Shown here one piece after another: positions 8,706 to 63,326 of a stretch of 64,000 nucleotides of DNA. A program made the position numbers and the translations under genes. Location of the stretch: NCBI RefSeq assembly GCF_000620145.1, contig NZ_KK211083.1, positions 186,001 to 250,000 on the forward strand. The letters are read 5' to 3'. Under the pieces are notes generated by a model. It searched no databases and was not told the DNA's origin. It saw only the letters and a list, made by a program, of their open reading frames with translations. The stretch is from Deefgea rivuli DSM 18356. Lineage in GTDB: Bacteria > Pseudomonadota > Gammaproteobacteria > Burkholderiales > Chitinibacteraceae. Numbering within the stretch: the first letter of the stretch is position 1; every line of letters starts with the position of its first letter.

Positions 8706-8756
8706 ATGTATGTGAATGTAGGCCAATTAAAATATGGCTTGCAGGTGTATACCTAT
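8706..8756. repeat. 51-nt palindromic element, copy A
   Basis: It starts ATGTATGTGAATGTAGGC and ends GGCTTGCAGGTGTATACCTAT (last 21 positions, with GTATACCTAT outermost). Length and spacing of the outer TAT..ATACC blocks are identical to the other copies. It lies upstream of the patatin gene and downstream of the pglL-like gene. Confidence 0.75.
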
Positions 8757-8847
8757 ATATTGCTGCAATGCAGCACCAGCTGACTGCCTATCTTAGCGTA
8801 GCGCTTGCAAAAAGTAAGTTAATTTTGTTTGATTGCTGCAAATTGAC

Positions 8848-8876
8848 TAGGGTCTGTTGACGTTTGGTTTACGATC
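8848..8876. repeat. Solitary terminal repeat of the 21168-21438 MITE
   Basis: The 29 nt beginning CTAGGGTCTGTTGACGTTTG and ending GTTTACGATC are identical to the left terminus of the MITE at 21168. No matching right end was found before 9096, so this is a relic or solo terminus. Confidence 0.7.
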
Positions 8877-20755: not shown

Positions 20756-21118
20756 TTAGCGTTTCTCTGTATTGCGACTGGATTTCTTCGGCGCGCGCAG
20801 CGCTGTGGCGATGCCTTCTTTGGCCCAATCGATCAGCTCGCTGGGTGTTTCTAGCGCGGATTCTGGCAGCGGATAGTAGCTCATGCTTTGCTGGCGACCA
20901 TCTTTCATTGCATAAGTAAACGGCGCGAGTTGGGCGGCGATAAAGCGTGGGCGATTCAAATCATCGACTTTGACGTAGAAAATATCGTCGACGACGATGG
21001 CAAAAAATAGCTCGTCGCAATACACGCCAAAACCACCAAACATGGCTTTGGCGCGCAGTGTACCGAGCGGCGCGAGCTCGCCCAATAGATAATCGACGTA
21101 CTCGCTGCGCTTAGCCAT
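20756..21118 (-). CDS. TfoX/Sxy N-terminal domain protein
   Basis: The 120-residue protein matches the TfoX N-terminal fold: YVDYLLGELAPLGTLRAKAMFGGFGVYCDELFFA with the conserved MFGG. A Lys/Arg-rich tail (PKKSSRNTEKR) follows. Full-length TfoX/Sxy controls competence genes, but stand-alone N-domains of this size are common and of unknown role. It is separated from hisB by 165 nt and bordered upstream by the MITE. Confidence 0.85.
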   Translation of the reverse strand: MAKRSEYVDYLLGELAPLGTLRAKAMFGGFGVYCDELFFAIVVDDIFYVKVDDLNRPRFIAAQLAPFTYAMKDGRQQSMSYYPLPESALETPSELIDWAKEGIATALRAPKKSSRNTEKR

Positions 21119-21167
21119 GATGAGTTAATCCAAAATGTCTTTGCATCGTGTCTTGCCTCGCCGTGTG

Positions 21168-21438
21168 CTAGGGTCTGTTGACGTTTGGTTTACGATCGCG
21201 CTGGAGCGATTTTCGCGGCAGATCAAGGCATTTCGTGCGAAGCATAGCCAGCTATTCGAGCACGGAATAACGCAGAGATGCCGCGAAAATCGCCCAGCCC
21301 TTCGGGTTTGGCTGCTTTTGGCCTGACCCTGCGTTACAAAACGCTGGCATAGAATGACTATGCGACGCGTCTTGTGCCTTGTTTCAGGCCAAAATCAGCA
21401 CAAACGCGATTCGCAAACCAAACGCCAATAGACCCTAG
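21168..21438. mobile_element. MITE-like element with terminal inverted repeats and two internal hairpin modules
   Basis: The 271-bp non-coding element is bounded by CTAG at both ends. Its left terminus, CTAGGGTCTGTTGACGTTTG(GTTTACGA), pairs with the right terminus with three mismatches over 28 positions. Inside are two further hairpins: GCGATTTTCGCGGCA (21206-21220) perfectly complements 21279-21293, and TTTTGGCCTGA (21316-21326) perfectly complements 21384-21394. Both have CAAGGCA and AACGCAG blocks and a CATAG..CTATG core, in opposite orientation. CTAG could be a target duplication of the YTAR type used by some IS5-like transposases; no transposase is in the window. It ends 4 nt from the CREST gene's stop and fills the 324-nt gap. 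Confidence 0.8.
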
Positions 21439-21442
21439 ACCG

Positions 21443-22165
21443 CTATTTGTAGTAGCGGCTACGCGTGGTTTGCACTAAGTGGTAAATAATCGTGCCTGCT
21501 GCCAGTGTTGAGAGCAAATGTTTCAGCGTGTGGCCGCTCATAAAACCAAGGACGGCGTAAATTTGATGGTCGGCCAGTTCGGCGACTTTGGCGAGTACAT
21601 ATAAAGCAATTGCCGCCGCAAATGCGATGCGAGTGCTTTTCGGTGCATGCCATTGCCAGATCGGGATTAGCAGCAGCGGCAAGGCTTGTAAGCCTAGATA
21701 CAAGCGCAAGTCGCCGCTAAAGTGCCAGTACACGACGCCCCCGATGGCAAAAACGCTGAGTGCGATGACTAAAGGCCATTGATTTTTGTGCGCTGAAAAA
21801 TTCTGCCAAACGCCTGCCAACAAGCCTGCGCAGGCCAATGAAATCGGCATGCGATCCCAAACGAGACGCTCGTCGTTTGGCGACCAGTGGTAATAGCCCG
21901 AGCCTATCGCAGTCAGGAAAATAGCGATAACAAACAGCGTGAAGCCTAAATTAAGCTGCTGACGCTCTGGCCATAGACGCAACATGCCCCACAGCGCGAC
22001 CAGTGCAAAACCAGCATTGGACAGTACATCGCCGCAATTGATAATGCCAAAACGCAGCAACTGATCAGCAAATGAATGATAGCCTTCAAGCTGGGCAATC
22101 GGCCCGTGAACCAGCATGCCGATCAAAATCGCCAGCAAAACCAAGATAGTTAACAGCTTTTGCAT
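21443..22165 (-). CDS. CREST-superfamily membrane hydrolase (alkaline ceramidase-like)
   Basis: The 240-residue protein has about seven membrane helices. It carries the spaced CREST motifs: NCGDVLSNAGFALVALWG (Asp-Ser-Asn), GSGYYHWSPNDERLVWDRMP (Ser, His, Asp) and ELADH followed by GHTLKHLLSTL (His residues). This superfamily includes alkaline ceramidase, PAQR receptors and Per1; the His/Asp residues form a zinc hydrolase site. A lipid amide substrate is likely but unproved. Found alone on the minus strand between two his blocks. Confidence 0.82.
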   Translation of the reverse strand: MQKLLTILVLLAILIGMLVHGPIAQLEGYHSFADQLLRFGIINCGDVLSNAGFALVALWGMLRLWPERQQLNLGFTLFVIAIFLTAIGSGYYHWSPNDERLVWDRMPISLACAGLLAGVWQNFSAHKNQWPLVIALSVFAIGGVVYWHFSGDLRLYLGLQALPLLLIPIWQWHAPKSTRIAFAAAIALYVLAKVAELADHQIYAVLGFMSGHTLKHLLSTLAAGTIIYHLVQTTRSRYYK

Positions 22166-22523
22166 ACAAAACCTTGGGTACAGAAAGAGGTAGGGCAGCT
22201 TAGCATAAATGCACTAATTTGGCCTTGGGTGTGAATTGATGTTGGGGTATTTAAATCTAGGCTTTATTTATTAATGGCTGCATTTGTATACCTATGGTTT
22301 TTAATCTTTCATCCATTGCTGAAAGAACACTGTTCCAGCGGGTTAAGCTCACTGCTAGAAACCTTAGAAATTGAATTTTACTACTGAGATGCTGCGATTC
22401 AGTAGTTGATTGCATCACACGGGCTTGGTTCTGCAAATGGTAGGAACTTTCGCTGTGCCTTTGTCTTGGCGCAAATTGACTTTGCTGCGTATGCTTAATT
22501 TTTATGTAGGAGTTAAATAGTCG
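22166..22523. other. Divergent intergenic region, CREST gene / TPR gene
   Basis: 358 nt without a supported gene. It must hold two divergent promoters and contains a copy of the 51-nt palindrome (22245-22295). A long minus-strand frame here (22257-22685) overlaps the TPR gene and is judged spurious. Confidence 0.6.
22245..22295. repeat. 51-nt palindromic element, copy C
   Basis: It begins GGGTATTTAAATCTAGGC, has loop TTTATTTATTAAT, and ends GGCTGCATTTGTATACCTAT. It is among the copies closest to the consensus and lies between divergent genes. Confidence 0.8.
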
Positions 22524-23555
22524 ATGGTTGATGCAGTCAAATCCGACGTGCATAGCGCTCAGCTCAAAGCGGTTGAGCAGCTGATTTTTACCGAGCCTGT
22601 GTTGGCGCGGCAGAAATGCCTCGCCGTGCTGGCTGGCGCTCGGCAGGCATTTGATGCGCCAACGTTGATTGCCGCCGCTTTGCAATTGTCTTTAATTGAA
22701 GACCAATTGGGCGATTTGGAGAGCGCAATTGCGGTGCTGTCTGAGGCGTTGGTATTTGCCGAGGAATTTAAATTGCAGCAGCGTTTGCCCCAATTGTTAG
22801 AGCAAATTGGACGTTGCTATTATTCGCAAGCGCGCTACCCGCAAGCTTTGGAGTTTTGGCACCAATGTGCGGTGCTCTGCGGGAATGATGCTGATTTTAT
22901 TGCAACGCGTGGTCTGGCTCTGATGGGGCTTGGGCAAATTTGCGATGCTTGTGGTGAAAATAGCCAAGCGATTACTTTGCATCAGCGGGCTCACACTTTA
23001 CTGGCCGGCATCAATGATTGTTTTTTGCTGACGATGGCGAAAATTAATTGGGCCGTGAATTTACAGAAAACAGGGCAAAACGATGCCGCTGAATTCATTT
23101 TGCAGGATGCTTTGCAATTAAGTCTGACGCACCAATTACCTCATCATGCGGCGGAAAGCTATTTCCGTTTGGCTGAGATTGCAATTGTAAAGCAGCATTG
23201 GGATCAAGCAGAACGCTTGCTGGAAGAAGGTTTGTTAACCTTGGCGACAACGCCTTATCATTGGTGTGAAGTGAATCTGCTGGCGCTGTGGGCGACGGTT
23301 GCGGCACAGCAGCAGCGGCTAGCCCAAGCACTCGAAAGCGTAAAACGTGGTCTATTAATTGCTGAGCAGGATGGTTTGCGGCATTTGGAAATGCGCCTGA
23401 ATCAGCAAGCGTCGCAATATGCGCGTGCGATGGGGCTGGATGATCAGGCGGAAGAATTTTTGCGTAAAAGTCATTTTATCGAAATTCATTTAAATACGGC
23501 ATTCGCACCAACCACGCTGTTGAATTTCAGTGCACTGAGCGATTTGCTGATTTAG
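22524..23555 (+). CDS. Tetratricopeptide-repeat protein (first of a tandem pair)
   Basis: The 343-residue all-helical protein is built of about six TPR-like units. It has no signal peptide, membrane helix or catalytic domain. Examples are LLEQIGRCYYSQARYPQALEFW, MAKINWAVNLQKTGQNDAAE and LEESLLTLATTPYHW-type segments. It is the tandem paralogue of the gene at 23706 over its whole length. Similar TPR arrays sit in front of GGDEF or adenylate cyclase domains in related bacteria; here the frame ends after the array (FSALSDLL). It is probably a scaffold. Its function is unknown. Confidence 0.85.
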   Translation: MVDAVKSDVHSAQLKAVEQLIFTEPVLARQKCLAVLAGARQAFDAPTLIAAALQLSLIEDQLGDLESAIAVLSEALVFAEEFKLQQRLPQLLEQIGRCYYSQARYPQALEFWHQCAVLCGNDADFIATRGLALMGLGQICDACGENSQAITLHQRAHTLLAGINDCFLLTMAKINWAVNLQKTGQNDAAEFILQDALQLSLTHQLPHHAAESYFRLAEIAIVKQHWDQAERLLEEGLLTLATTPYHWCEVNLLALWATVAAQQQRLAQALESVKRGLLIAEQDGLRHLEMRLNQQASQYARAMGLDDQAEEFLRKSHFIEIHLNTAFAPTTLLNFSALSDLLI

Positions 23556-23705: not shown

Positions 23706-24734
23706 ATGCCCATGATTGAGCCGCAGCCTCGTCAATCTCAATTAGATGCGATTCAAGCGCTCTTGTTTACTGAGCCGGTGCGCGCACGCGAGCTTTGCTT
23801 GGCGCTGCTTGCTCAAACGCGGCAAACTTTTGATGCGAAAACATTTATTGCAGCGGCTTTGCAACTTTCGCAAATTGAAGATCAGCTTGGGGATTTAACG
23901 AGCGCAATTAATCAGTTATTCGAAGCAATGGTTTTTGCTGAGGAATTCAAACAAAGCCAGTGTCGACCTGAAATTCTCGAGCAAATTGGCCGCTGTTATT
24001 ACACTCAAGCTTGCTACCCGCAAGCGCTAGAGCATTGGCTGCAATGTGTGGTTTTATGTGGCAAAGATGCCGAATTTTTGAAAACCCGTAGTTTGGCTTT
24101 AATGGGCTTGGGGCAGATTTGTGATGTGTGGGGCGATCATGCCTTGGCGGTCAGAATGCATGCGTCAGCGCATCAATTGCTGCTTGATACTGGCGATGTG
24201 TTTTTGCGTGTTAAAGCCAAAATTAATTGGGCAGTGAATTTGCAAAAAACCGGCGATTTGATTGGCGCGAAAGAATTATTACGCCGCTCCTTAACTTTAT
24301 GTTTGCAGCATCAGCTCCCGCATTACGCCGCCACCAGCTCGTATCGGCTGGCTGAAATTGAATTGATGAATGGGCATTTAGAGGCGAGTGAATGCTTAAT
24401 TGAAGAGGGTTTGGCGATTGTCGCTATTACGCCTTACCATTGGGCCGAAGTCAATTTACTGGCGCTTTGGGCGCAATTGATGGAGAAGCGCGGGCAAAGT
24501 CAACAGGCCTTAGACATTGTTCAGCGTGGTTTGCAAATCGCGCAGCAAGACGGCTTTCGCCATCAGGAAATGCGTTTGGCCGATCAGGCCGAGCGCTATG
24601 CGCGTGCAATTGGCAAAATCGATCTGGCTGACGATTATGCTCGGAAAGTAAACTTTATTATGCTGCATTTAAATACCACGACCACTCCGCAATTTGCACC
24701 GAATTTATCGAGCTTAAGTGATTTATTAGAGTAA
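23706..24734 (+). CDS. Tetratricopeptide-repeat protein (second of a tandem pair)
   Basis: The 342-residue protein is a clear paralogue of the preceding gene. It shares LEQIGRCYYTQACYPQALE, SLALMGLGQICDVWG, KINWAVNLQKTGD and the same end LSSLSDLL. The two lie head to tail 150 nt apart, so a gene duplication is the simple explanation; divergence in the middle repeats suggests it is not very recent. No effector domain. A 51-nt repeat starts directly after its stop, followed by a terminator. Confidence 0.85.
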   Translation: MPMIEPQPRQSQLDAIQALLFTEPVRARELCLALLAQTRQTFDAKTFIAAALQLSQIEDQLGDLTSAINQLFEAMVFAEEFKQSQCRPEILEQIGRCYYTQACYPQALEHWLQCVVLCGKDAEFLKTRSLALMGLGQICDVWGDHALAVRMHASAHQLLLDTGDVFLRVKAKINWAVNLQKTGDLIGAKELLRRSLTLCLQHQLPHYAATSSYRLAEIELMNGHLEASECLIEEGLAIVAITPYHWAEVNLLALWAQLMEKRGQSQQALDIVQRGLQIAQQDGFRHQEMRLADQAERYARAIGKIDLADDYARKVNFIMLHLNTTTTPQFAPNLSSLSDLLE

Positions 24735-26314: not shown

Positions 26315-26365
26315 AGGTATTGCCATCTAGGCTTTATTCTCAAATGGCTAGATGGCAATACCTAT
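26315..26365. repeat. 51-nt palindromic element, copy D (perfect arms)
   Basis: The arms ATAGGTATTGCCATCTAG (26313-26330) and CTAGATGGCAATACCTAT (26348-26365) are perfectly complementary over 18 bp, with a 17-nt loop. It lies between hisD's start and the yqhA-like gene, ending 3 nt before the latter's stop codon. Confidence 0.9.
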
Positions 26366-26368
26366 TGG

Positions 26369-26905
26369 TTAGTGCTTTTGGTCTGAGACCGAATGCAGTA
26401 GTTTGTCGGTGTAGGCGAGCGCGGCTGCGGAGATGAGGAAGGTCAGATGAATCGTCACCTGCCATTTTATCGTCGCTTCTGGAATTTGGGACGCGTTGAT
26501 AAAGGTTTGCAATAAATGAATCGACGAGATACTGATAATCGCCATCGAGAGTTTAACTTTCAGCACCGTGGCATTCACGTGGCTGAGCCATTCAGGTTGA
26601 TCAGGATCGTTATCAAGACGCAAACGCGAGACAAATGTTTCATAGCCACCCATTGTGACCATGAGCAGCAAATTCGCAATCATCACCACATCAATTAAGC
26701 CCAATACCGTGAGCATCACGTCCGTTTCTGACATCGACGTGAGGTTCATCAGCATCCGCGTCAGTGCCGCTAGAAATTTATACGCGTAAACGCCTTGAAC
26801 GATAATAAGGCCAAGATAAATCGGCAGTTGTAACCAGCGGCTATTAAAAATAACCTTCGCCAGTAGCGTGGTTTTTTTCGGATTGGCATTAGTAGGGGGC
26901 AGCAT
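26369..26905 (-). CDS. UPF0114 (YqhA) family membrane protein
   Basis: The 178-residue protein has about four helices and the family pattern. It has [50 protein letters not shown], a short charged segment [16 protein letters not shown], then [15 protein letters not shown] and [19 protein letters not shown]. coli YqhA shares these blocks; its function is unknown. I chose [11 protein letters not shown] (26905), which has AAAGAG upstream; the frame is open to 26968. A decayed fragment of a second family member lies at 28345-28458. Confidence 0.88.
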
Positions 26906-31884: not shown

Positions 31885-31935
31885 GGGTATGTGAGTGTGG
31901 CGCTTATCTAATATTGCCTGCACTCATATACCCAT
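31885..31935. repeat. 51-nt palindromic element, copy E
   Basis: It begins GGGTATGTGAGTG, has core GGCGCTTATCTAATATTGCC, and ends CACTCATATACCCAT. The arms GGGTATGTGAGTG and CACTCATATACCC pair with one mismatch. It sits in the yadH-ibaG gap directly next to the hairpin at 31852. Confidence 0.85.
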
Positions 31936-32024
31936 CAAGGCGATTGGTTTTCAAATTAATGCAGCATAATTTGATACTCGCGCCTTGCTGGGTTTTTATG
32001 GACAAAGTCTTTGTTACTAATGCC

Positions 32025-37844: not shown

Positions 37845-38218
37845 GGATTGAGGGGTCGTAGTTAAGGGTGGATTTTAGGGCTTTCCGCCTTTGCACGCTA
37901 GAGATATACGGCTTTGTTGCGATGCAATATAACAGCATGCATGCATTTTAGAGGCCTTGCATTGCCTGCGTGTGATGAGTGGCGCGCTTTATTGTTCTCA
38001 TTTTTATTCAGTGTCGTCATTTGTGGACAGATTAATTATTGATGTATTTATCTATAGCCCTTGATATAAATAGCCTGCATGGAAATACCCATGGTTAATT
38101 TGCTATGAATATGGCTTGCACTAGCCTTTATTACGCTTTTGATTGTTGAAAGGTATGATGTTTTTGGGTGTTGGTGTACTTTTACCCTTGCTTAATTTCA
38201 CATCATGAGGTCGACGAC
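37845..38218. other. Divergent intergenic region mlaF / mshM
   Basis: 374 nt without a gene. It should hold the promoters for both the mla and msh operons. It contains a copy of the 51-nt palindrome (38042-38092) and a short GCATGCATGC run near 37936. No clear regulator site recognised. Confidence 0.6.
38042..38092. repeat. 51-nt palindromic element, copy F
   Basis: It begins ATGTATTTATCTATAGCC, has loop CTTGATATAAATA, and ends GCCTGCATGGAAATACCCAT. It lies 127 nt upstream of mshM between two divergent operons. Confidence 0.78.
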
Positions 38219-48195: not shown

Positions 48196-48246
48196 GGGTA
48201 TTTGCTCGTAGCCTTTTATTTATAATGCTTGCATTGATATACCAAT
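48196..48246. repeat. 51-nt palindromic element, copy G
   Basis: It begins GGGTATTTGCTCGTAGCC, has loop TTTTATTTATAATGC, and ends TTGCATTGATATACCAAT. It starts 22 nt after the mshK stop, ahead of the terminator. Confidence 0.78.
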
Positions 48247-48295
48247 AAATTTTTACTTTGTTGAACCATCGCCGCTGCTGGCAAATCGATGATAC

Positions 48296-60464: not shown

Positions 60465-63278
60465 ATGTCCTTATTTTCCTTCTCCCCTCGTTCGCGTTTT
60501 ATTGCGATCAGCGTTGCGCTGCAAGTGCTGCTGCTGGCTGCTTTGGCTTTTAATGCGCATCGCATTTGGGCTGAAATGGCGCAGCAGGAAACCGAGCTGC
60601 ACGTTCAGGCTTTGTCTCGGCTACTTAAATCCTCTTTTATGCCCGCCATGGTGGCCGGCAATCGCGTTAAAGCGGCTGATTTGCTCGATAGCTTGCAGGC
60701 GGCCGATGGTATTGATTATCTGGTGCTGCTCGACGCGCATCAGCAAGTGATTGCCGCACGCGGTTGGGATGTTTCAAAAAAATTACCTCCAAGTGATGTG
60801 AGTTTTGAATCCGCTATGGCGGCAGGTCGCGTGATGCATGCGCGTACGCCGTTGGAGTTTGGCGGTGAGCAATTGGGTGAGTTGCGTTTTGGCGTGTCAG
60901 CAGATGTGTTACGGAGCGGGTTTGAGCGCTTGATTTGGCAAAATGGCCTTATTTTACTGGCCGGATTTTTGCTTTCAGCGGCCTTGTTAATCTATGCCGG
61001 ATTGTGGATTTCTCGACATTTATATCGTGTGATTGAAGCCACCGAAACGTCCTTGACCGGCTATTTTGAACCGATTGAGGTTCCGGCTGGTTCAGACGAA
61101 ATCGCTAAAATTTCGCGGCGTTTTAATGAGATGGCCAGAACGATTAAATCGTATATTTTGGCACTCAATCAGAGTGAGGCAAAATATCAGGCGATTGCCG
61201 ACTCATCTAATAGCGCCGAGCTGTGGCTTAATCCAGAAGGGCGGCTGGTTTGGGCGAATGCGTCCGTCGTGCGTGTGACGGGCTATTCGGTCAATGAATG
61301 TCTGCTGCTGCCCGATTTTCCATTAACGATTGCCACGCCCGAAGAGCGTTTGCGCGTTGAAGAAACTTTTCGCATTGCATTACAGCAGCAATCGTCCGAG
61401 CAAGATTACGAATTTCGTGCGATGCGCCGTGACGGCAGCCTATTTTGGGCCGCGGCGAGCTGGCAGCCCATGCTTGATGTGAATCACAGCTATCAAGGTT
61501 TGCGGCTGAGCATTCGCGATAATTCCGAAATTAAAGACGAGCGTTTGGCATTGCGTAAATCGGTGATTGAATTGCGCCAAATTCAATCCTTGGGCCAAAG
61601 CTATTTACAGCACGCTGAATCCGAGCGAGCGCGCATGCTGGCTTTGTTGGCAGCGATGCGATTTGGGGTGTTGTTTGTTGATAATGACAATCGGATTGTG
61701 TTTTTTAACCCCGCATTTTGCGAAATGTGGGGTTTGTCTTCGCAGAAAATGATGATTGGTCGCCCGATTGGGCAGATTTTGCAGTTGGCGGATAATCGCC
61801 CAGCGAAAGGCGATGTGCTGTCGTATTACTTGGAAGAATTGGCGTCGCTGGAAGAGCGCGTTGATTTTGGTGAAGTGACGCTGAATGACAATCGCGTTAT
61901 TTTGCAAAGCTGCTATCGCGTGACCGACCCGCAAGGCGAAACCAATGGCCGTATGTGGGTTTACGAAGATGTGACGCAGCAACGGCAGATTGCCGAGCGC
62001 ATGGTGAGTTTGGCCGAGCGCGATGCGTTGACGGGCTTATTTAACCGCCATCGTTTCCAGCAAGAACTCAATCGCATGGTGTCTGAAGCGGATCGTCGGC
62101 AAACGACGATGGCTTTGGTGTTTTTTGATTTGGATGAGTTTAAGTTGGTCAACGATAGTTTTGGCCATACCGTCGGCGATGAATTACTCAAAAGCATCGC
62201 GCGTGAGATCAGCAAGCAAGTGCGCTTACATGAAGTGTTTGCCCGCTTGGGCGGCGATGAGTTTGCGGTACTGCTGCCTGAATGCGATGAGTTTGAAGTT
62301 AGTAAACTCGCTGATCGGATTGTGCAAACCGTGATGCAAACGCAGTTTGTTGCGGGTAATCATTTAATGCGGCCTTCGACCTCGGTGGGTGTCGCGATTT
62401 ATCCCTTGCACGCCAATTCGCCGGATCAATTGGTCGCCCATGCCGATACGGCGATGTATCAGGCCAAAGCGGCCGGCAAAGGCACGTGGCGCGTGTACCG
62501 CCCTGATTCGGATCATTCGCGCAGCGAGTTGAATCGCCTGTCGTGGAAAGAGCGGATTGTTGATGCGCTGGAGAATGATGGTTTCGAGCTGCATTACCAA
62601 GGGATTTACCACACGACAGATCGCAGCCTCGCGCATTTAGAAGCGCTGGTTCGGATGAAAGATGCGGATAGTCCGGGCGGCATTATTATGCCGGGGCAGT
62701 TTATTCCGCATGCCGAAAAAACGGGCAAAATCGTCGATCTGGATCGCTGGGTGATTAAAGAAGTGATTCGCTTGCTTGCTCATTACCCTGATTGCCCATC
62801 GATTGCAGTCAATGTTTCGGGGCGCTCGTTTGATGAGCCTGAGTTGCCGCTGTATATCGCCAGCCTGCTGGAGCACTACAAAGTGAATCCAAAACGGCTA
62901 TTGGTCGAGTTGACTGAAACCTCGGCGGTGTCAGATTTATCCGATGCACAGCGCTTTATTGATGCATTGCGCTCAACGGGTTGCGTGGTGTGTTTGGATG
63001 ACTTTGGCGTGGGTTTTGCGTCGTTTGCTTATTTGAAACAGCTCAAAGCCGATGTATTGAAAATCGACGGCCTGTTTATTCGCGATTTGCCGAATGATAG
63101 AGACAGCCAGATTTTCGTGCGCGGCATGGTCAGTATCGCGCACGATATGGGCAAAACGACGATTGCCGAGTTTGTCGAAAGTGAAACGATTTTTAATATG
63201 CTGGTTGAATTTGGTGTGGATCAAGTGCAAGGTTATTGGCTAGATAAACCGCAAAAAGATCACCCAGGATTAAAGTAG
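60465..63278 (+). CDS. Membrane sensor with HAMP, PAS, GGDEF and EAL domains (c-di-GMP turnover)
   Basis: The 937-residue protein has two N-terminal helices (about 13-30 and 159-182) around a periplasmic sensor. A HAMP-like linker follows (to about 232), then a PAS domain (about 240-365), and a second PAS-like domain (about 395-505). The GGDEF domain (RLGGDEFAVLLPE, about 590-602) is intact, with a degenerate I-site (RLHE for RxxD). The EAL domain is also complete: EALVR, VNVSGRS, LTETSAVSDL, CLDDFGVGFASF, KIDGLFIRDL and GVDQVQGYW. It can be a cyclase, a phosphodiesterase, or switch between both. Its stop codon is shared with a 51-nt repeat. It could control MshE through c-di-GMP. Confidence 0.93.
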   Translation: MSLFSFSPRSRFIAISVALQVLLLAALAFNAHRIWAEMAQQETELHVQALSRLLKSSFMPAMVAGNRVKAADLLDSLQAADGIDYLVLLDAHQQVIAARGWDVSKKLPPSDVSFESAMAAGRVMHARTPLEFGGEQLGELRFGVSADVLRSGFERLIWQNGLILLAGFLLSAALLIYAGLWISRHLYRVIEATETSLTGYFEPIEVPAGSDEIAKISRRFNEMARTIKSYILALNQSEAKYQAIADSSNSAELWLNPEGRLVWANASVVRVTGYSVNECLLLPDFPLTIATPEERLRVEETFRIALQQQSSEQDYEFRAMRRDGSLFWAAASWQPMLDVNHSYQGLRLSIRDNSEIKDERLALRKSVIELRQIQSLGQSYLQHAESERARMLALLAAMRFGVLFVDNDNRIVFFNPAFCEMWGLSSQKMMIGRPIGQILQLADNRPAKGDVLSYYLEELASLEERVDFGEVTLNDNRVILQSCYRVTDPQGETNGRMWVYEDVTQQRQIAERMVSLAERDALTGLFNRHRFQQELNRMVSEADRRQTTMALVFFDLDEFKLVNDSFGHTVGDELLKSIAREISKQVRLHEVFARLGGDEFAVLLPECDEFEVSKLADRIVQTVMQTQFVAGNHLMRPSTSVGVAIYPLHANSPDQLVAHADTAMYQAKAAGKGTWRVYRPDSDHSRSELNRLSWKERIVDALENDGFELHYQGIYHTTDRSLAHLEALVRMKDADSPGGIIMPGQFIPHAEKTGKIVDLDRWVIKEVIRLLAHYPDCPSIAVNVSGRSFDEPELPLYIASLLEHYKVNPKRLLVELTETSAVSDLSDAQRFIDALRSTGCVVCLDDFGVGFASFAYLKQLKADVLKIDGLFIRDLPNDRDSQIFVRGMVSIAHDMGKTTIAEFVESETIFNMLVEFGVDQVQGYWLDKPQKDHPGLK

Positions 63279-63326
63279 TATTGCCACCTAAGTATTGTTT
63301 AGTAATCCATAGATGGCAATACCCTA
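63276..63326. repeat. 51-nt palindromic element, copy K, spanning stop to stop
   Basis: It begins with the TAG stop of the GGDEF-EAL gene (63276-63278) and ends with the TAG stop of the convergent rlpA gene (63326-63324). TAGTATTGCCACCTA pairs with TAGATGGCAATACCCTA. Its length is exactly that of the family. Confidence 0.82.

Follow-up and report, generated by a model that had tools for sequence, protein, structure and literature searches.

A 265-bp MITE with IS5-type ends in Deefgea rivuli has a folded two-module core that recurs with other ends across much of its class

REP and REPIN sequences consist of paired inverted hairpin units without coding capacity; they are short palindromes tagged with GTAG/CGTC that go with a RAYT tyrosine transposase, and they lack terminal inverted repeats (TIRs) and a target duplication of the kind described below. 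The element of Deefgea rivuli reported here resembles them in spreading inverted hairpin pairs without coding capacity, but does not belong to them, having TIRs, a TA duplication and ends like those of IS5 (TA or TNA). The Correia or NEMIS sequence of Neisseria is a small folding MITE of related bacteria and of another size; its described ends differ from those of our element, and it is not known to carry CAAGGC/AACGC modules. Transcripts of Correia/NEMIS sequences are reported to be RNase III substrates in work cited by a review (PMC10969869).

Two MITEs of Coxiella, QMITE1 (300–400 bp) and QMITE2 (150–190 bp), generate other duplications, and their authors found no orthologues of QMITE1 in other genomes (PMC5896051). 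Both are non-autonomous, multicopy and strongly folding, as is the Deefgea element, but neither a conserved module nor a class-wide spread was reported for them (PMC5896051). MITEPsy1 of Pseudomonas syringae, 100 bp long with a reported 4-bp duplication, has IS5-related ends and a CTAG/YTAA target in common with our element, whereas no two-module core was described (PMC3189936). An equivalent element was found neither in Rfam nor in the open papers searched; an earlier description may exist in a paper on a Polaromonas JS666 MITE, which the same review (PMC10969869) cites. The end sequences appeared only in papers that, judged by title, concern unrelated subjects.

The element lies in a 64-kb window (the whole stretch of DNA analysed, 64,000 nucleotides), between the stop codon of a minus-strand gene at 21443–22165, called ceramidase-like from a weak Pfam match below cut-off, and the start of a minus-strand TfoX_N gene (20756–21118). 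The region 21168..21438 comprises the 265-bp MITE proper (21171..21435, no strand assigned) and the flanking target bases C-TA and TA-G, the duplicated TA dinucleotides being at 21169..21170 (context C-TA-G) and 21436..21437. The left TIR, GGGTCTGTTGACGTTTGGTTTACGA (21171..21195, plus strand), begins with the 16 bp that form the TIR of an IS5-family IS, and the right TIR (21411..21435, minus strand) is an imperfect copy. No ORF of at least 80 aa lies within the element, and its length is well under the 500-bp limit for MITEs.

The preliminary description of the locus had read it as a MITE-like arrangement of TIR, hairpin, inverted hairpin and TIR, and the architecture is as it stated. The imperfect 28-bp terminal repeats are present as arms of 28 nt (21168–21195 / 21411–21438) that are 89% complementary. 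Hairpin module 1 (21200..21298), in sense on the plus strand, has the perfect 15-bp outer stem (21206–21220 / 21279–21293), a conserved CAAGGC / AACGCAG internal loop and an inner stem ATAG..CTAT. Hairpin module 2 (21306..21405), in sense on the minus strand, is its inverted homologue, and the perfect 11-bp stem noted there is a run inside a longer stem of 16 nt (94%; 21311–21326 / 21384–21399). A small central hairpin, CCC-loop-GGG (21298..21307, plus strand), links both modules. The common block order in opposite orientation is real, in that the left module aligns end to end over ~ 100 nt with the reverse complement of the right one. A covariance model built from the hairpin module, the E-values of which are rough, matched 21200–21298 on the plus strand (100 bits) and 21306–21405 on the minus strand (107 bits), and in the 64-kb window nothing further at E ≤ 10 except the complements of those two. 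Folding 21160–21445 as single-stranded DNA yielded −86.3 kcal/mol, compared with −45.9 ± 4.0 kcal/mol for shuffled sequences (z = −10.2).

Two other features of the window were recorded. A second family of interspersed repeats, 46–55 nt long with the pattern GGTAT..TAGGC..ATGGCTGCA..ATACC, has six or seven diverged copies in the 64 kb (8707–8761, 22246–22300, 26316–26370, 31886–31940, 38043–38097 and 48197–48251, and inverted at 63278–63323), with no visible relation to the MITE. The genes at 22524–23555 and 23706–24734 are adjacent paralogues of ~ 343 aa, TPR-like by eye, in a tandem duplication.

The suggestion that CTAG at both ends is a 4-bp target duplication was wrong. In 70 full MITE copies the outer base next to the TA is C or T in 67/70 cases on the left and G or A in 64/70 on the right, whereas the inner bases are nearly always fixed. 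The outer base varies independently on each side, in these copies as in 12 IS copies with identical ends, and among the latter combinations such as TTA..TAG and CTA..TAA make the TA duplication directly visible, free of mutational decay. A 4-bp duplication would moreover require a T at the right of the 18 MITE copies with T on the left, but nearly all have C there. Variation of the outer base on the one hand rules out the 4-bp duplication, the inner base being fixed, and together with the empty sites given below it establishes a 2-bp TA duplication at a YTAR target, of which CTAG is merely the preferred form. TIRs and a target site duplication, as expected of a MITE, are thus both present.

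The host genome contains 12 copies, 10 near-full-length and 2 with one hairpin, as well as several solo ends; the copies are mostly intergenic. Full copies are only 75–95% identical in pairwise comparison (mean 84%), so the element family is not young in this host. Copies also occur in 6/6 other Deefgea genomes and in further genera of the bacterial family (Chitinibacteraceae), and an exact-pattern scan for the end sequence, with one genome per species, returned Deefgea and Chitinibacter only. Empty sites, which the preliminary description had proposed to look for in relatives, were found in sister species: the site of one copy (L010) reads GACAC-TA-GACACT with a single TA in sister genomes, and that of another (L006) reads GGAC-TACAGTATCC. 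A 24-bp TIR–TIR scar is retained at L006 in another species, and a deleted derivative of roughly 100 bp is found at L010 in four species. Dispersed copies and empty sites in relatives both mark the element as mobile. Two observations named in advance as telling against mobility, ends unique in the genome and a region conserved and syntenic, were not made, since the ends recur in the genome and the element is no fixed syntenic feature. We have very little doubt that it is a TA-duplicating MITE with IS5-type ends.

Several partial forms were also observed. In the window, a solo end at 8847..8876 (plus strand) reproduces the left TIR and CTAG exactly over 30 bp and continues into unrelated sequence; no right end was found for it. 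Solo ends in Deefgea were considered as halves of a long IS, and this was rejected because one 1.4-kb pair (L092) has no long transposase-like ORF between its ends. Loci L159 (G006:C22), L274, L276, L277 and L279 are minimal derivatives of 24–74 bp, barely more than two TIRs, in which the hairpins were lost repeatedly between intact ends. Another locus (L278, G003:C1:287300–287570) is a composite, 119 bp long, in which MITE ends are nested inside each other.

Beyond what the preliminary description contained, the main point is that the same module pair occurs with different ends through much of the class. The covariance model matched 38/43 genomes of the family and, at E ≤ 1e-5, 74/300 sampled genomes of the order and 96/369 of the class. 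Inspected loci mostly have the same layout of TIR, sense hairpin, antisense hairpin and TIR in 264–270 bp. The full layout was present at 18/28 class loci, and at least 5 of the remainder are short, incomplete loci. Total length was 264–270 bp in 44 elements from many families, the search for those at class level having allowed 255–295 bp. On this layout we found the ends GGGTCTGTTGACGTTTCATTC, GGGCCTGTTAACACTTATTTC, GAGCCTGTTCAAAGTCTTTTC, GGGCTCGTTAATGAATAACTTGG, GAGCCTATTTCAGTAGATTTC, GAACCCATCTCAATAATACC and GAGTGCCTAACATAATG, among others. The duplication follows the ends: TA is duplicated with GGG-type ends and TNA with GAGCC-type ends (TTA/TTA, TGA/TGA, TCA/TCA). One genome carries 24 elements of 261–266 bp with identical ends, which is a recent burst. 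Named carriers are plasmid pAcX50f of Azotobacter chroococcum, Halomonas sp. PA16-9 and Methylophaga frappieri, in which one module was found; the alphaproteobacterium Ca. Magnetococcus massalia has a 202-bp one-hairpin derivative. The window element itself had no match in phage records or in plasmid records, the latter containing other members with the same chassis. Three loci in other families of the class (L407, L409 and L410, around 1500–1600) are apparent single-hairpin elements with the same module and are possible monomeric relatives; the flanks of L409 resemble, by eye, TIRs of a different kind.

An alignment of 54 copies contains the TIR stem, the two long hairpins and the small central hairpin. 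Pairing is retained in 96.7% of its cells, compared with 87.2% after shuffling and about 33–44% when slid, and cells changed on both sides number 469 against 142, with 51 pairs changed on both sides. By parsimony, double changes arose independently 37 and 38 times in the two modules and 30 times in the TIR stem. When 25 elements were aligned across orders, pairing held in 92% of cells, and 84/93 pairs occurred as at least two Watson–Crick types. Although the stem sequence changes, conservation extends to CAAGGC, AACGC and the central CCC/GGG, and few positions are better conserved than the unpaired CAAGGC and AACGC. It is accordingly very probable that the core is homologous throughout the class and selected for its structure. 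No Rfam family matched the window region above its gathering score, and ten related loci gave only sub-threshold matches to plant miRNAs, outside the elements. A dif-like recombination site in the apical loop was considered and rejected, as the loop sequence varies between genera and only the pairing is kept.

The modules are also polar. With 88 modules read in sense and only pairs predicted on both strands considered, 103 G.T wobbles were counted against 48 A.C (p 9e-6; 56:28 in left modules, 47:20 in right ones), although these polarity counts are not fully independent. On the plus strand of the elements from Deefgea and relatives the ratios are 21:14 in the first hairpin and 7:30 in the second, and the TIR stem, as a control, is symmetric (19:20). 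G.T pairs form in single-stranded DNA too, and the polarity is therefore no proof of RNA. The folded single strand of the module appears from these comparisons to be under selection, probably as RNA.

Paired changes can arise without selection, by correction of palindromes, and the element might be an ordinary MITE with functionless hairpins whose arms stay complementary through intrastrand template switching at quasi-palindromes. The double changes in the TIR stem are what such a process would leave, selection for TIR–TIR pairing not being expected, and the process is consistent with the many copies whose intact ends now enclose only one hairpin or none. However, correction predicts neither the high conservation of the unpaired CAAGGC and AACGC, nor the constant 264–270 bp of elements from many families, nor wobbles that are polar in the modules and symmetric in the TIR stem. 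We regard functionless hairpins as unlikely, and selection on one folded strand as the better account because the polarity and the conserved unpaired motifs are not predicted by palindrome correction.

It is equally unlikely, in our estimate, that the hairpins act in transposition. In that case the modules, together with the central hairpin, would give the element a compact, junction-like fold in single-stranded or cruciform DNA, bringing both TIRs within reach of the transposase. The predicted fold does run from the TIR stem directly into the modules, and a junction of this kind would account for the constant length and for independence from a particular transposase. Strand polarity within each module is nevertheless unexpected if the whole strand folds, and copies with one hairpin or none are present at several sites. 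IS5 transposases, furthermore, act on double-stranded ends.

Among the IS types of the bacterial family that were checked, one has matching ends. This IS of 857 bp, with the TIR GGGTCTGTTGACGTTTCA, is present as the 12 copies with identical ends in one Chitinibacteraceae genome and as 858-bp copies in another genome of the same genus. Its protein belongs to the IS5 family (NCBIfam NF033580, E 5e-78; DUF4096 plus DDE_Tnp_1). An example of the NF033580-type ISs of the IS5 family (ISPa67-like), it agrees with the MITE in the first 16 TIR bp (16/16 identical), in the YTAR target and in the TA duplication, and the MITE TIRs are of the type GGGTCTGTTGACGTTT found in IS5-family ISs. The identity stops after the TIR: the IS has a transposase gene and no hairpin module, whereas the MITE has two modules and no gene. 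The covariance model detected no module in the IS loci searched (L113, L115 and L391). The preliminary description had called for a transposase with the same ends; one exists in the same bacterial family, but no intact matching IS was found in Deefgea genomes by a PF01609 search, so the MITE is not currently being mobilised there. This IS type has left a right-end remnant at G000:C6:320991. Several other IS types from the bacterial family, with TIRs such as GGCTTTGTTGCACAAA and ATGCCGTTCACTTAAG, do not match in their ends and were rejected. An IS630/Tc1 transposase, suggested by the TA duplication, was likewise rejected because the host genome contains no PF13358.

IS relatives on plasmids of Aeromonas, Halomonas, Azotobacter, Methylomonas and Raoultella have the ends GGG[T/G/C]CTGTTG[A/C]C, and the MITE subfamilies GGGTC, GGGGC, GGTTC and GGCTC vary at the same positions. 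Azotobacter chroococcum NCIMB 8003 carries on plasmid pAcX50f a 265-bp element together with a matching IS5-family IS (L350, L422), a natural test pair in a convenient non-pathogenic host. One Halomonas element has its end in common with a Halomonas IS, and a plasmid-borne Xanthomonas IS with an IS5-family annotation, the end GAGCCTGTTCAAAGTC and a TTA duplication matches the GAGCC-type TNA ends. No matching IS was found for several of the alternative ends (GGGCTCGTTAATG, CTATTTCAGTAG). It is fairly probable, from sequence comparison, that the ends were exchanged to fit resident transposases.

Inverted homologous modules just inside the TIRs have the look of symmetric transposon ends, and the element could be a deletion derivative of a larger, unseen autonomous transposon, each end being a TIR plus hairpin and the gene between them lost. 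Among the loci examined, we noticed none with a gene flanked by two modules; modules are also absent from the ISs that share these TIRs, and the length is the same in many families, which makes such an origin improbable. A simple internal deletion of a resident IS5-family IS shares with the MITE the 16-bp ends and the target, but has almost no probability left, as the covariance model matches nothing in the IS loci and IS identity ends after the TIR; the earlier remark that the element is more than a deleted IS was correct.

The best overall explanation, which we consider probable, is an IS5-type MITE with a structured core of class-wide distribution. The element is non-autonomous and gene-free and would be mobilised in trans by IS5 transposases. 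Its core, the inverted pair of ~ 100-nt modules joined by the small hairpin, has been inherited or spread horizontally through the class. The ends differ among lineages, as does the duplication type that goes with them (TA or TNA), and would have been exchanged to suit the resident transposase. We infer a function for the hairpins from their sequences: the modules may be kept since their sense strand folds singly, with RNA from read-through of flanking genes as the likeliest form, and a host factor or nuclease of wide conservation may recognise the folded hairpin. Action at the level of RNA rather than DNA is itself a tentative proposal, at slightly less than even chance. Because the module copies are inverted, a transcript entering from either side always has one sense hairpin. 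The element would consequently behave alike in both orientations, and intergenic insertion would be easier to tolerate.

More speculatively still, an ancient hairpin chassis may persist across much of the class by changing transposase, its inverted 100-nt module being under selection for a folded form, in RNA (or in single-stranded DNA), that a conserved host factor binds, and its ends being repeatedly replaced to follow the resident IS5-type transposase. MITEs are usually seen as decayed copies of one IS and defined by their ends; here the ends vary, and what is conserved is the folded core, in many families and with two or more duplication types. The element is an unusually old and well-preserved gene-free genomic hitch-hiker. 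If the proposal is true, a mobile element may owe its identity to an RNA-like core rather than to its ends, MITEs could outlive their transposases through end change, and one structured element, unnamed in Rfam, would be common to the whole class. From the inversion and strand polarity of the modules, a single-strand function independent of orientation is predicted, which would offer a direct test of why bacterial MITEs fold.
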